Source of the DNA: Clostridiales bacterium
GTDB taxonomy: Bacteria; Bacillota_A; Clostridia; Christensenellales; Christensenellaceae
Assembly: GCA_003149735.1 (NCBI GenBank)
Contig: QANA01000044.1
Location: forward strand, 1 to 13,568
DNA length: 13,568 nt
Direction of reading: 5' to 3'
Shown here: positions 3,737 through 9,103 of the stretch, one piece after another
Layout of the letters: each line of letters starts with the position of its first letter
How positions within the stretch are numbered: position 1 is the first letter of the stretch
The notes under the pieces: model-generated
Told to the model about the DNA's origin: nothing
What the model saw: only the letters and a program-made list of their open reading frames with translations
Database searches by the model: none
Translations under genes and position numbers: made by a program

Positions 3737-4684
3737 ATGCTGACTGTGAAAAATATTTCAAAACATTATGGAGATACTGCCGCGCTGAGCGGCATTTCTT
3801 TTCATATTGCCCCGGGGGAAACTACGGGAATTTTTGGTATGTCTGCCTCCGGAAAAACGACTCTATTAGATATTATTTCAGGGTACATGTTGCGCTATAC
3901 AGGCCATGTGGAACTATGCGGTGTCGATCTGCATAAGCACCCCTCTCTGTATCGCCGTCAGATCGCCTATATTCCGACGGGCGGCGGGTTATATCCGGAA
4001 ATGACCGTGGAGGAATATGCGCTGTTTGTTGGTGGTCTCAATCATCGGAAAAATGGAAAATGTAAAAAAAAGGTAGCAGAGGCGATGCGCTTTGCAGGGA
4101 TCGAAAGCCTGGCAGCTTATCCCATACAATCGCTGAATACGCTGGATCGGGCCAAAGTTGCAGTTGCGGCGGCTCTGGCGACGGAACCCAAGCTGCTGCT
4201 GATAGATCAACCGTTCTATGGGTTGCGTATGGATGAAATCGCAGTGTATCAGAACTTTTTAAAGGCTGTGGCACAGCGGCTGACATTGATAGTGGCCTCC
4301 GATTCCATTTCCGGTTTTTCGGAGATATGTAAGCGCACGATTATTCTCAATAAGGGTAAGATGGCGTCAACTGCCGGTGAAAATTTTTTTGCCATGAAAA
4401 ATACAGGGGCCCGGCTGCGGCTGAGAATTGCCTGCGCGCCTTCGCAGGTGAAAGCCGCATTTCAATTTATTCCGGGAATACTGAATCTGGATTTTCAATG
4501 CGCACCGGAAAAAGGTGTTTGGGATGTCTTGATTCATGCGGAGGAGGGGATAGATATCCGCAGACAGATATGGTTTGCGGCAGCGACTTTCAAAGTGCCC
4601 GTGCTGGAAATGCGCTATCTGAATATTTCTCCGGAAGATATTTTTTTGCAGCTGACCGGCCAGAATCAGGGGGAGGGCAGATAG
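3737..4684 (+). CDS. ABC transporter ATP-binding protein with degenerate catalytic motifs (GldA-like)
   Basis: 315 aa, first gene of a three-gene operon. The Walker A motif G-M-S-A-S-G-K-T (34-41) is intact, and the region Y-P-E-M-T-V-E-E-Y (86-94) matches GldA/CcmA-type ATPases. However, the ABC signature is L-N-T-L-D-R (133-138) instead of LSGGQ/LSKGY-R, Walker B reads L-L-L-I-D-Q-P, placing Gln158 where the catalytic Glu belongs, and the H-switch position is Asp189 in A-S-D-S. ATP binding is likely; normal hydrolysis is doubtful. Residues after about 220 form an additional C-terminal domain of the kind common in this family. It should pair with the permease directly downstream (stop to start, 4 bases). 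The substrate is unknown. Confidence 0.85.
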   Translation: MLTVKNISKHYGDTAALSGISFHIAPGETTGIFGMSASGKTTLLDIISGYMLRYTGHVELCGVDLHKHPSLYRRQIAYIPTGGGLYPEMTVEEYALFVGGLNHRKNGKCKKKVAEAMRFAGIESLAAYPIQSLNTLDRAKVAVAAALATEPKLLLIDQPFYGLRMDEIAVYQNFLKAVAQRLTLIVASDSISGFSEICKRTIILNKGKMASTAGENFFAMKNTGARLRLRIACAPSQVKAAFQFIPGILNLDFQCAPEKGVWDVLIHAEEGIDIRRQIWFAAATFKVPVLEMRYLNISPEDIFLQLTGQNQGEGR

Positions 4685-4688
4685 GCGC

Positions 4689-5399
4689 ATGAAGGCAATC
4701 ATCCATAAAGAGATACGGAGCTATTTTCATAACATTCTGTTATATATGATTGGCACAGGATTGACGCTCTATTCGGGAATTCGATTCAGCGGAATTCTTT
4801 TTTCCGTGGAAATTTCTTCGATTCAGTCCATATTTGCAGAAGTGGCGTTTACGCTGCTCTTATTTATCCCGCTGCTTACGATGGATAGTTTTGCGGCAGA
4901 GAAATATAATGGGACGGATCGGTTGCTCTTTTCTTCGGCAATCAGTATGTACAATGTAGTATGTGCAAAATATGTGGCAGCCTTTCTGACTTTTGCAGTA
5001 TTTTCTGGAGTAACGCTGTTGCTGCCTATGGGTATGTTGCTGCTTTCGGGCATCTATTGGACAGAAGCATTGCTTTTGTATGGCGGCGTGTTGCTGCTGG
5101 GCAGCGCGGTCTGTGCATTTGGCATATGGATTTCTTCTATGTCTTCCCATGGATTTCGAGCGCTGTTGGTGACGGTGACAGGATTATTTGCCTGGTGGAT
5201 GCTGGATGCCTTACTGCCCTATATGGGAAATATCTGGATCCGTGAATTAATTTCTTTTATTTCGTTGTTCAGCCGTTTTGAAGCTTTCCAGAAGGGATTG
5301 CTCAGCTATTCGGCTGTGCTTTATTTGGTTTCGGCGACAATTCTCTTTCAATTGCTGGCTATGCAGGTTTTGCGAATATGGAGGCAGAGAAGAGCATGA
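4689..5399 (+). CDS. ABC-2 type permease (GldF-like)
   Basis: 236 aa, very hydrophobic, with about six membrane segments. The N-terminus (M-K-A-I-I-H-K-E-I-R-S-Y-F) and the conserved loop A-A-E-K-Y-N-G-T-D-R-L-L (near residue 70) are typical of GldF/NosY-type ABC-2 permeases. It starts 4 bases after the ATPase stop, with the ribosome site GGGGGAGGGC inside the end of the previous gene, and its TGA overlaps the ATG of the next gene (ATGA). It would form the membrane channel of the ABC system. Confidence 0.85.
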   Translation: MKAIIHKEIRSYFHNILLYMIGTGLTLYSGIRFSGILFSVEISSIQSIFAEVAFTLLLFIPLLTMDSFAAEKYNGTDRLLFSSAISMYNVVCAKYVAAFLTFAVFSGVTLLLPMGMLLLSGIYWTEALLLYGGVLLLGSAVCAFGIWISSMSSHGFRALLVTVTGLFAWWMLDALLPYMGNIWIRELISFISLFSRFEAFQKGLLSYSAVLYLVSATILFQLLAMQVLRIWRQRRA

Positions 5400-6835
5400 A
5401 ATGGTGGACAAACTGGAAGGAGCGAATTCATGGCAGACAGGGGATTGGCTTTAATATTATATTTGGAGTGTCGCTGTTTTTATTGATTGTTGCCAACCTG
5501 TTGTTCCCGGCAATAGAACGCAGCTATGCTCTGAAAACGGATTTAACAAAGAATCATATTTATACGCTGTCTGACAGTACCAAAAAGATTTTACAGGAAT
5601 TGGAAGAAGATATTTATATTTACGCAGTATATTCCCCGGGAAATGAAGATATCCGCGTGCAGTCTTTATTGGAAAAATATGGGGCGGCATCGCCGTATAT
5701 TCACGTCACTTCCATATCTACGGAAGTACTGCAGTCTGCAGAGATGAAGGCACAACCTGCAATGAGTGAAGGCGTTGTCTTTTTTAACGCAGATCACTCG
5801 TTTTCCCACACATTTGCGTATGAAAATTTTTATATGACGGATGAGGAAGGGAATCAGATGGGATGGAAGGCGGAAGCAAAAATCACTGCTGCAATACAGG
5901 GCATTGTGCGGGGCGCATTTTGCAATGTGCGTCTGCTGACCGGCCATGGAGAAACAACCGAAAAGGACTTGAGCCGTTTTTTGCAGATGCTGGATATTGG
6001 AAATTTTCAGGTAAGCAGTTATGACCCTTCTGCAGATACGCAACCACTTGATGCCAAGACAGATATTTTGGTAATTGTCTCACCCAAAGCAGACCTGGAA
6101 CACAATGAATATGAGACAATTTCGAAATTCATGGAGGAAGGCGGGCGTACATTGCTGTTGCTGGATCGGGCCAGTTTTAATACAAAACAGGGCACTTTAC
6201 AGATTTATACTACAGAGCTGCCGTCCTTTTCAAAGCTGATGGCTGATTACAACATACAGGTGAATGACGATTTGATTTTTTCCAGAAGTGTAGAGGCCAT
6301 GAATCTGCGGCGCACTTCTTTTCGGGCAACTCCTCTGATGCATTCAGTGACAGAACAACTGATAAAGAATGATCAGGGAGTGGTCGTCAACGAAGCGGCG
6401 AGCCTGCGTTTCCTGAATGGCGGGGAAGTGAAAATTTCTGCACTATTGGCAGCGGACGCGCGTTGTTTTGCGAAAACACTGGAGAATGGTGTGGAAAATT
6501 TTACCTATCAAAGTAAGGATATGCAAGGGACGTTTATTGTCGCTGCATTGGCAGAAAAAGATGCCTCATGTTTGGCTGTGATCACAGATTCTCTGTGTAT
6601 CGGCGATGAATCCCTTTCAATCCCCGGAAATCGATTATTTTTTGAGAGCCTGATCAATACCATCTCGCCTATGGAACCGCTGATTTCCGTAGAAAGCAAA
6701 GAACTGTGCATCCCCGGAATACCGAGGTCCGGTGGTGCGGCACAAATGCTGATCATGATCGGAGGACTTTTGGTGCTGCCGTTTGTGGTGCTTTATGTAG
6801 GTATGCGTATGAAATCGGGAAAATGGAGAAAATAG
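5396..6835 (+). CDS. GldG-like ABC system auxiliary protein
   Basis: 479 aa from ATG 5396, which overlaps the permease stop as ATGA and has GGAGG at 5380-5384; an in-frame ATG at 5378 would add 6 residues. One membrane segment near the N-terminus (about 19-39), a large outside domain, and one segment near the C-terminus (about 450-470) followed by a basic tail. The motif L-T-G-H-G-E (181-186) and the following I-L-V-I-V-S-P-K are hallmarks of the GldG / ABC_transp_aux family. GldG-type proteins accompany GldA and GldF; in flavobacteria that set is tied to gliding, but in Firmicutes the role is unknown. The product probably forms a complex with the two upstream proteins. Confidence 0.85.
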   Translation: MKWWTNWKERIHGRQGIGFNIIFGVSLFLLIVANLLFPAIERSYALKTDLTKNHIYTLSDSTKKILQELEEDIYIYAVYSPGNEDIRVQSLLEKYGAASPYIHVTSISTEVLQSAEMKAQPAMSEGVVFFNADHSFSHTFAYENFYMTDEEGNQMGWKAEAKITAAIQGIVRGAFCNVRLLTGHGETTEKDLSRFLQMLDIGNFQVSSYDPSADTQPLDAKTDILVIVSPKADLEHNEYETISKFMEEGGRTLLLLDRASFNTKQGTLQIYTTELPSFSKLMADYNIQVNDDLIFSRSVEAMNLRRTSFRATPLMHSVTEQLIKNDQGVVVNEAASLRFLNGGEVKISALLAADARCFAKTLENGVENFTYQSKDMQGTFIVAALAEKDASCLAVITDSLCIGDESLSIPGNRLFFESLINTISPMEPLISVESKELCIPGIPRSGGAAQMLIMIGGLLVLPFVVLYVGMRMKSGKWRK

Positions 6836-7006: not shown

Positions 7007-7777
7007 ATGGAAAAACAGATCAGATTGTTGGTAGTGGATGATAATCAGGCTTTGGCTTCTGAGATCAGTGCATTTATGAATGCACAGCAGGAAATACAGG
7101 TGGTAGGGACTGCAGAAAACGCAAAGGAAGCATTGGAAATGGTGAAGCTGCTGAATCCCAACGCTATCATTGCAGATTTGATCATGCCACAGACGGATGG
7201 ATTCTTTTTGCTGGAGAGGCTGGCGACCGGAGAATATGGCGAAATGCCGAAGGTGATTATGCTTTCGGCAGTCAGCAGCGAAACACTATATGCGCGGGCT
7301 ATTTCTCTTGGTGCTACTTATTATATGAATAAGCCTTTTGTGATAGAAACATTATATCAGCGGCTGCTGGATTTCTTTGATTTGCGTCCGTTGAATATTC
7401 AGAAAAAGCCGACTCTGGTTAAAAGTAAATCACTGGATGAACGGATTACCAGTATTTTCCTTTCTATTGGGATCCCGGCCCATATCAAAGGTTATCAGTT
7501 TTTGAAGGAAGCCATTAAAATTGTAATTAAAGAGCCGGAGATGATTAACGGAATTACCAAACAGCTCTATCCGGCCATTGCACAGAATTTTGAAACATCG
7601 CCGAGCAAAGTTGAGCGTGCGATCCGCCATGCCATTGAGGTCGCTTGGAATCGTGGCCGTATTGAAAATCTGAATACTATTTTTGGTTATCATATTTACA
7701 CAAAAAATGATAAACCCACCAATGGTGAATTCATAGCATTGATTGCGGATCGTTTGACGCTTGAAGTGCCTGCCTGA
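7007..7777 (+). CDS. spo0A: Stage 0 sporulation protein A (master response regulator)
   Basis: 256 aa, the usual Spo0A length. Receiver domain (about 5-125): acidic pocket D11-D12, phosphoacceptor D57 in I-I-A-D-L-I-M-P, switch Ser87 and Lys109 in N-K-P-F. C-terminal Spo0A DNA-binding domain (about 140-256): I-P-A-H-I-K-G-Y-Q-F-L, the stretch V-T/I-K-Q-L-Y-P-A-I-A and the highly conserved recognition helix S-K-V-E-R-A-I-R-H-A-I-E-V-A-W. Phosphorylated Spo0A binds 0A boxes and commits the cell to sporulation. In Clostridia it is phosphorylated directly by orphan kinases. The start has AGGAG with 8 bases spacing. It is a single-gene unit here, between the ABC operon and a DnaA-box cluster; no canonical terminator is visible after it. 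Confidence 0.98.
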   Translation: MEKQIRLLVVDDNQALASEISAFMNAQQEIQVVGTAENAKEALEMVKLLNPNAIIADLIMPQTDGFFLLERLATGEYGEMPKVIMLSAVSSETLYARAISLGATYYMNKPFVIETLYQRLLDFFDLRPLNIQKKPTLVKSKSLDERITSIFLSIGIPAHIKGYQFLKEAIKIVIKEPEMINGITKQLYPAIAQNFETSPSKVERAIRHAIEVAWNRGRIENLNTIFGYHIYTKNDKPTNGEFIALIADRLTLEVPA

Positions 7778-7824
7778 TTGCATATTCATTTTTTTCGTCA
7801 AAATATTCATGAATCAGACACAGG

Positions 7825-8006
7825 TTATGCACAAAAGAAAGTGGGAATTGTTGATAATGTTGATAACTTTGTGGATTTATCAACAGAAATAAAGCCGTAA
7901 TCATCGCTTTTTTCAACAAGACTGTTGATAATGTGCATAACTTCTTTGCAATAATTCCCGTTTATGCACATAGTTGATATGTGAGAAATACATGAATTTA
8001 TGCAAA
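7825..8006. promoter_or_regulatory. Cluster of DnaA-box-like 9-mers (candidate oriC or DnaA-binding locus)
   Basis: In 182 bp the following occur. TTATGCACA: 7825-7833 (+), 7932-7940 (-), 7962-7970 (+). TTATCAACA: 7849-7857 (-), 7858-7866 (-), 7877-7885 (+), 7923-7931 (-). One-mismatch sites: TTTTCAACA 7910-7918 (+) and TTATGCAAA 7998-8006 (+). Both sequences differ by one base from the DnaA box TTATCCACA. Two pairs abut head to tail with no gap (7849-7866 and 7923-7940), and 7858-7866 with 7877-7885 forms a perfect inverted repeat. The surroundings are AT-rich and hold no credible gene. The array looks like an origin or a DnaA-titrating/regulatory cluster; dnaA and dnaN are not in the window, so origin function is not proven. 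Confidence 0.65.
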
Positions 8007-8092
8007 GCAATCTCCTGCATTTTGAAAGGGTATCACGTATATTTTACTTCCTTTGAGGGCATGATAGGAATAAAAAGGAGAATTTTCTTAAC

Positions 8093-8347
8093 ATGCCCAA
8101 TCAATTAGGTCGCATTAAAAGTTTGCTATCTGCCTATCAGGGATGCATGGTTCAACTGTATGCGATAGGAGAGCGAAATAAAATATTGGATACCTATGGA
8201 ATTTTAGAAGGTGTCTATCCTGAAGTATTTGTTGTGCAAGTGGAACAGGGTGGCTATTGCCGGAAATATTGCTATTCTTACAGTGAGATATTGACAAAAC
8301 GCGTGAAAGTCACCCCAGCGCTTCCGTATGGGCGATCGATTGGATAG
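8093..8347 (+). CDS. veg: Veg family protein
   Basis: 84 aa. It matches the small Veg (DUF1021) family: N-terminal R-I-K-S-L-L, then G-C-M-V-Q-L-Y-A, the core G-I-L-E-G-V-Y-P-E-V-F-V-V-Q-V and the late S-Y-S-Y-S-E-I-L-T motif. In Bacillus subtilis, Veg promotes biofilm matrix gene expression and the gene is strongly expressed in growth; its biochemical role is not settled. The ribosome site AGGAG lies about 12 bases before ATG, longer than usual, but no better start is available. I see no confident -35/-10 pair. The last 38 bases overlap the convergent gene on the minus strand. Confidence 0.88.
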   Translation: MPNQLGRIKSLLSAYQGCMVQLYAIGERNKILDTYGILEGVYPEVFVVQVEQGGYCRKYCYSYSEILTKRVKVTPALPYGRSIG

Positions 8348-9023
8348 AAAGCGGCTTGCCGGTTGCGAAATCTTTGGCAAATAGCCAATAGCCCTGAGAG
8401 CCGTCTGCGTTATTGAGGAAGTAATCGAAGCCCTTGAGCCATGGAGGCGGATTTACGGCATATTCACCGGGCACAGCTAAGAGGGTAACACGCAAAATAC
8501 CCTGTTCAAAAATTTCCCCTGTTAGATAATGACTGCCATTTGCGAAATACGGATATTCCACCCGTTTCCAGACGGTATTTTCCAAAAAGCCCGGGAAAGG
8601 ATTGCTGATGTTGGAAGCATCTGCTTTTCGGCAGGGAGGCTCCTCTGCTGCTGTTTTGGCAGCGGCAGAAGGAGAGGAAGGGGGCGCAGCGATTGGCGCG
8701 GCGGTAACAGACTGCGGCTGCAGGGCAGAAAGAGCGGCTGCCCAATGGAAATCCCCTATTTTTGCTTTCATAAAGGGATGTCCTTCGGATAACAGAACAA
8801 CCGCTTTGAGTGATTTCAGCTGTGCCTCTGAGGTTTCTCCATGTAAATTCGGAAGCTCTAAAAAGCGATCCTCGCTGAAGAAAAACAGTAAGCGCGGATG
8901 CTTGGGCAGATGACTGCAGTGAAGTTCATAATGCAGTGATTGACGCTGCTCCAATTCAAGAATCCCTATGTCCTGCCCTTTCAGGAGCATGGAAATTTTT
9001 TGATAGTTTTTAGGTTGCTGCAT
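8310..9023 (-). CDS. Uncharacterised two-domain protein with Ala/Pro-rich linker
   Basis: 237 aa from ATG 9023, chosen because AGGAGG lies 12-13 bases upstream and the peptide before it looks non-coding; an in-frame start at 9158 would lie inside the terminator hairpin. Residues 1-95 form a compact domain rich in beta-type residues (I-S-M-L-L-K-G-Q-D-I-G-I start). Residues about 100-140 are a low-complexity linker of Ala, Pro and Ser. The C-terminal domain carries a distinctive aromatic/proline pattern: W-K-R-V-E-Y-P-Y, H-Y-L-T-G-E, L-A-V-P-G-E-Y, N-P-P-P-W-L-K-G-F-D-Y-F and G-Y-W-L-F. I recall similar C-termini in hypothetical clostridial proteins but cannot assign a function. There is no signal peptide or membrane segment, so it is probably cytoplasmic. 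Confidence 0.75.
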   Translation of the reverse strand: MQQPKNYQKISMLLKGQDIGILELEQRQSLHYELHCSHLPKHPRLLFFFSEDRFLELPNLHGETSEAQLKSLKAVVLLSEGHPFMKAKIGDFHWAAALSALQPQSVTAAPIAAPPSSPSAAAKTAAEEPPCRKADASNISNPFPGFLENTVWKRVEYPYFANGSHYLTGEIFEQGILRVTLLAVPGEYAVNPPPWLKGFDYFLNNADGSQGYWLFAKDFATGKPLSIQSIAHTEALG

Positions 9024-9103
9024 TATAAAAGAGCACCTCCTTTTTCTAACTATATGCATGCACAGTTGGGAATTATCCTGACAGGTTTTAAACTTTTTGA
9101 CAG

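Follow-up and report, generated by a model that had tools for sequence, protein, structure and literature searches.

An ordered array of DnaA-box-like sequences behind spo0A, shared across Christensenellaceae, is probably a DnaA-box cluster outside oriC

The gap between spo0A and a veg-like gene in a genome of the Christensenellaceae contains an ordered array of sequences that look like DnaA boxes. Because relatives keep the spacing of these boxes, two of them apparently after loss of spo0A, we read the array as a replication-control site rather than a spo0A switch. It is probably a chromosomal DnaA-box cluster outside oriC, of the kind represented by the DnaA-box clusters (DBCs) of Bacillus subtilis and by datA of Escherichia coli, and would restrain re-initiation. 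The initial annotation had left several interpretations side by side: the identity of the boxes as DnaA boxes and the likeness to DnaA-titrating clusters agree with the evidence below, a displaced or second origin does not, and a switch for sporulation entry is weakened.

The window, that is, the whole stretch of 13,568 bp that was analysed, carries the array in a gap of 315 bp that is AT-rich (GC 0.317). The veg-like gene on its far side passes the Pfam cut-off and falls below the NCBIfam cut-off (50.1 vs 135 bits). The features of the locus are listed here, B3 at 7858 being the anchor from which offsets are counted.

7007..7777, plus strand: spo0A, upstream neighbour (TIGR02875, 284.6 bits, cut-off 200)
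7825..7833, plus strand: B1, DnaA-box-like TTATGCACA, exact 9-mer
7849..7857, minus strand: B2, putative DnaA box TTATCAACA, exact 9-mer, first of an abutting pair
7858..7866, minus strand: B3, putative DnaA box TTATCAACA, exact 9-mer, second of the abutting pair, position 0
7870..7878, minus strand: degenerate box AAATCCACA, near copy, offset +12
7877..7885, plus strand: B4, inverted putative DnaA box TTATCAACA, exact 9-mer, perfect inverted repeat with B3
7910..7918, plus strand: weak box TTTTCAACA, near copy
7923..7931, minus strand: B5, putative DnaA box TTATCAACA, exact 9-mer, first of the second abutting pair
7932..7940, minus strand: B6, putative DnaA box TTATGCACA, second of the second abutting pair, 74 bp after B3
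7962..7970, plus strand: B7, DnaA-box-like TTATGCACA, exact 9-mer
7998..8006, plus strand: weak box TTATGCAAA, near copy
8093..8347, plus strand: veg-like gene, downstream neighbour (PF06257, 62.3 bits, cut-off 25)

All seven window copies of the exact 9-mers, three of TTATGCACA and four of TTATCAACA, lie inside 7825–7970, and the perfect box TTATCCACA has no copy in the 13,568 bp. Seven boxes with at most one mismatch from TTATCCACA fall in the gap; when the gap was dinucleotide-shuffled 2000 times, the average was 0.124 and no shuffle gave more than 2. The remaining 13,253 bp of the window hold three such boxes, with at most one per sampled 182-bp stretch. The array exceeds chance. The clustering of seven exact 9-mers and the two head-to-tail pairs that abut with no gap (7849/7858 and 7923/7932) were confirmed as first described. 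Perfect inverted repeats are formed by two pairs (7858 minus with 7877 plus, and 7932 minus with 7962 plus), and near copies lie at 7870 minus, 7910 plus and 7998 plus.

An RNA element in the gap was rejected, as no Rfam match was found there; the only Rfam match in the window was a tRNA elsewhere. A tRNA-Ser (GGA) lies on the minus strand at 1864–1955. By eye, words resembling TTATGCA or ATGAATAA repeat around the boxes in the window (7778–8020) and in the intergenic regions of loci L169 and L179; they are perhaps weak DnaA sites or the sites of another protein. Spo0A-box words were seen by eye in two relatives only (G002 and G015). Upstream of spo0A, at 3737–6835, lies a three-gene GldA/GldF/GldG-like ABC transporter, all three genes scoring below NCBIfam cut-offs. 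On the other side, the veg-like gene overlaps tail to tail, at 8310–8347, a minus-strand ORF (8310–9056) with no Pfam or NCBIfam match, a relative of which accompanies veg in G001, G003, G004, G014 and G104.

The best 80 of 569 loci in a Spo0A scan led to 18 genomes of the window's family; among these 80, Spo0A identity to the window was 87% in L001 and L002 and 66% in L003 and L004. Thirteen of the 18 genomes have a full-length Spo0A-like match (G001–G010, G014, G015 and G017). The initial annotation had suggested comparing the spo0A-downstream gap in relatives, and all 13 proved to carry at least two boxes, with at most one mismatch from TTATCCACA, behind Spo0A. The cluster lies directly behind spo0A in 12 of them; in G003 it is found 1.55 kb on, next to veg, a DUF1576 gene having been inserted behind spo0A.

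The geometry of the array is shared as well. Offsets were compared in 15 relatives, the 13 Spo0A-bearing genomes plus G012 and G013, the anchor box of each being set to 0 by eye. A minus-strand box at −9 (B2) is present in 11 of the 15 with at most two mismatches and in 8 with at most one; the corresponding numbers are 14 and 13 for the box at +64 to +66 (B5), 10 and 9 for that at +73 to +75 (B6), and 9 and 4 for that at +12, all on the minus strand, although G004/G014 and G006/G007/G008 seem closely related, and the counts are therefore not independent and stand for fewer events. The +12 box is intact or one mismatch away in G005–G008. The inverted box at +19 (B4) is found in the window, G001–G004, G012, G013 and G014, and at +29 in G015; it is absent in G005–G010 and G017. 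A counterpart of B7 occurs in G001 and G002 at +102/+103, and at the offset of B1 (−33) G001 has TTATACACA and G002 TTATGCACA. At the offset and strand of the weak box 7910 plus, no box was found in the relatives compared. Offsets are shared down to about 40% Spo0A identity; the main pair of G015 is shifted by about 10, G017 fits least, and G017, G009 and G010 have few boxes. When the window, G001, G002 and G003 are compared, 49 of 63 columns inside boxes are invariant vs 52 of 252 outside.

Are these boxes read by DnaA? They look like DnaA boxes, and the box variant found in relatives tends to follow their own dnaA region. The share of TTATCAACA vs TTATCCACA in the cluster tracks that of the dnaA region across the 13 genomes in which boxes could be counted in both regions (Spearman 0.857, nominal p 0.0002), a correlation to which kinship, ties and base composition contribute. 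The set leaves out G005, in whose cluster both exact variants are lacking, and G004, which has no DnaA match and was taken as an incomplete genome; G014 runs against the trend (4 CC and 1 CA in the dnaA region, 1 CC and 2 CA in the cluster). Same-strand box pairs 0–12 bp apart were found at 24 places in 12 of 13 genomes (none in G017), 11 of them at dnaA, 9 at the cluster locus and 4 elsewhere, and the reversed-pattern control gave no such pair in any of the 13. The perfect box is likewise commoner than its reversed control in 13 of 13 genomes; single boxes elsewhere exist. The variant trend fits DnaA, to whose box the initial annotation had likened these sequences, and DnaA probably binds here.

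While the cluster stays, its neighbours change. A Veg match is present in 5 of the 18 genomes (G001–G004 and G014), each time beside the cluster; that of G003 was flagged with one TGA, and the ORF list gives an open frame of 90 aa. Behind the cluster lie a PF00144 beta-lactamase-fold gene in G015 and a PadR gene in G005, G006, G008, G009 and G010, and the one frame tried in G007 had no match. An element of the veg promoter was rejected, as the spo0A-bearing G005–G010, G015 and G017 have no Veg match, yet carry boxes behind spo0A. In G012 and G013 we found no full-length Spo0A (best E-values of 3e-9 and 4e-8, covering the receiver part only), no Veg and no SpoIVA match, in genomes whose completeness is unstated. 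In both, a single contig carries gldG, then the cluster, then xylB, as in the window except that spo0A and veg are missing from between them, and boxes stand at −9, 0, +19 (inverted) and +65. G011 and G018 gave no gldG match, and G016 gave one of only 25% at a locus without the cluster. SpoIVA matches were obtained in only 5 of the 18 genomes (G001, G002, G004, G014 and G015), and 10 of the 15 cluster-bearing genomes have none, including G003, which may simply be incomplete. A Spo0A-like gene is retained without a SpoIVA match in G005–G010 and G017. Cultured Christensenella are called non-spore-forming in the excerpted text of PMC8289216.

Could the cluster nevertheless control spo0A? DnaA might act there as a transcription factor or roadblock on spo0A read-through or on the downstream gene, and so tie sporulation entry to replication, as the initial annotation had envisaged. 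The position directly behind a full-length Spo0A match in 12 of 13 family genomes speaks for such a role, as does a precedent in B. subtilis, where the product of sda, a gene activated by DnaA, inhibits the activation of Spo0A (excerpted text of PMC4447404). However, two genomes apparently keep the cluster after losing spo0A, and because G012 and G013 keep it without spo0A and veg, it would do something other than control spo0A; we regard this as the strongest argument. Spacing kept without full-length spo0A, veg and spoIVA matches, and spo0A-bearing relatives without a SpoIVA match, weaken a sporulation-entry switch, and direct control of spo0A by the cluster is weakened with it. Moreover, the DUF1576 gene separates the cluster from spo0A in G003, and the gene downstream differs (veg, PF00144 or PadR), which is not what is expected of a DnaA-regulated promoter of a conserved target gene. 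As weak evidence, a consensus promoter scan of 7600–8400 found one promoter-like site, on the minus strand, vs 3.1 expected, and none on the plus strand. We consider this form of gene control unlikely. A second or displaced replication origin is extremely improbable, even though the boxes are dense and the gap AT-rich. No window ORF was identified as dnaA, in line with the first description of the cluster as lying away from it; in the relatives dnaA is on another contig or at least 146 kb away, and in G008 no skew switch was found at the cluster. Of 16 family dnaA loci, 14 have at least three exact TTATCCACA/TTATCAACA boxes of their own no farther than about 1.5 kb from the dnaA match, and the other two, G011 and G017, have one each. 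Cumulative GC skew over 400 kb of G008 is lowest in the bin at 2.34–2.35 Mb, at dnaA, and does not turn where the cluster lies (2.6016 Mb). Three or more boxes come together at three places in that stretch: at dnaA, at the cluster and, as a weak group with one mismatch, at 2.32 Mb. These dnaA boxes and the G008 skew led us to reject a displaced origin. The two places do share box sequences, and abutting pairs also occur at dnaA in G003, G009 and G012, but unlike the oriC of Firmicutes, which flanks dnaA, the cluster is not beside that gene. It lies 146 kb from dnaA in G007 (of 2.56 Mb), 254 kb in G008 (of 2.97 Mb), 259 kb in G009 (of 2.77 Mb), 187 kb in G010 and 159 kb in G005; spo0A and dnaA are on different contigs in G001–G003, G014 and G015. 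In G001, a second box cluster (C72:11930–11969, L159) was seen some 10 kb away from dnaA, flanked by an AstE/AspA-type gene and a Peptidase_S24/HTH gene.

Like E. coli DARS1 and DARS2, the cluster is a multi-box site of mixed orientation, and its inverted box at +19, next to a same-strand pair, is reminiscent of the DARS core, in which box I stands opposite boxes II and III (excerpted text of PMC5742627). Such a site would reactivate ADP-DnaA instead of restraining it. The opposite box is present in the window but missing in G005–G010 and G017, and the comparison was by orientation alone; reactivation is distinctly doubtful. A site of chromosome organisation or segregation, using DnaA boxes or a look-alike protein, would account for the shared geometry and for the words repeated by eye around the boxes, but the tendency of box variants to follow the dnaA region fits DnaA, and we hold this to be very unlikely. 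The preferred reading, a DnaA-box cluster outside oriC that would restrain re-initiation, has counterparts in B. subtilis and E. coli. As in the DBCs of B. subtilis, several boxes form an intergenic cluster outside oriC. Initiation comes earlier when six DBCs are deleted, and putting one back partly reverses the effect (Okumura 2012, in the excerpted text of PMC5295017); the same review text calls DBCs redundant and rates their role as minor, not significant, an argument against any single site having a large effect. Unlike the cluster, none of the eight high-affinity DnaA regions of B. subtilis named in the excerpted text of PMC4447404 (two at dnaA, ywcI/vpr, gcp/ydiF, trmE, ywlC, sda and yydA) lies at spo0A or veg. 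The E. coli site datA is non-coding; its essential boxes all point the same way, two of them being set farther apart, and its distance from oriC is about 10% of the chromosome (excerpted text of PMC5742627). The cluster is similarly non-coding, with two same-strand pairs and a longer gap, at 5.7–9.3% from dnaA in G007, G008 and G009, where the contig is about genome size; it differs in the inverted boxes of some lineages, and datA itself needs IHF.

Outside the family, the link between the cluster and spo0A is patchy. Among 151 sampled genomes of the order, 8 of them from the window's family, 16 have an abutting pair, and the 17 places concerned comprise 9 at the spo0A/veg/sipL or gldG-xylB locus, 2 at dnaA and 6 elsewhere. 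Four such places at the locus are outside the family, behind spo0A in G019, beside veg in G104, between veg and sipL in G024 and, in G143, beside a sipL-like gene (about 21% identity) only. Spo0A matched in 69 of 81 order genomes searched. Among the 29 best-scoring loci of the 68 genomes with a Spo0A match other than G001, 4 (G019, G043, G077 and G078) have at least two exact boxes within 900 bp of spo0A, and in L005–L080 boxes within 400 bp behind spo0A are not enriched (0.37/kb vs 0.30/kb elsewhere). On these densities and the 4 of 29 loci, a general clostridial feature of spo0A was rejected. In genomes outside the four closest, groups of 3–5 boxes were seen farther beyond spo0A, at about 3 kb (L055:8414–8533) and nearly 8 kb (L048:16485–16520 and L073:10967–11002).

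At the level of the class, a TTATCCACA-type pair was found in 39 of 245 genomes, at 41 places. Among 28 new pair loci, L196 is a further case behind spo0A, and DnaA was found at none. Ten flanking frames, one per locus, comprised three dnaB, one tsaD, two solute-binding, three other and one unmatched. The pairs adjoining dnaB (three loci) and tsaD (one locus) are those of L198, L208, L212 and L197. A similar box layout recurs in L191, L193, L192 and L194, with solute-binding genes following in L191 and L193. In B. subtilis, tsaD goes by the name gcp. The gcp/ydiF region is one of high DnaA affinity in that species (excerpted text of PMC4447404). Around the pairs, 7 of 39 loci have a further box on the same strand at −12, and 8 have one at +21, vs a mean of 0.27 per offset; related loci inflate these counts, and the 39 are what remained of 44 pair loci after three short ones and two without an exact pair were dropped. 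A 12-9 box spacing rule may be general.

How would the cluster restrain initiation? Two same-strand abutting pairs, separated by 74 bp or some seven turns of the helix, together with the inverted boxes, would favour cooperative DnaA binding, and the bound DnaA could form a fixed nucleoprotein complex. At 146–259 kb from dnaA in five measurable relatives, the locus would be copied early after initiation; the doubled cluster might then take up, or inactivate, DnaA, and re-initiation at oriC would be restrained, a mode of action already proposed for the DBCs and for datA. More speculatively, the cluster might be a family-wide Firmicutes equivalent of datA with a fixed two-module layout, an active DnaA-inactivating complex instead of a passive sink, whose ancestral place behind spo0A once coupled the level of the initiator with spo0A dosage; spo0A would later have decayed in some lineages, and the replication part stayed. 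We think this fuller scenario unlikely.

A full-text literature search (listings and the starts of abstracts) returned no report of a DnaA-box cluster at spo0A, and DnaA-box clusters outside oriC have so far been worked out in few model species. Here, the cluster can be traced across a family at similar offsets and outlives its neighbours, so that its own role becomes separable from that of the adjacent genes. Relatives of Christensenella, a genus of the human gut, offer a natural setting in which to ask whether such sites act in replication or in gene control, and the box layout is a concrete target for mutation.
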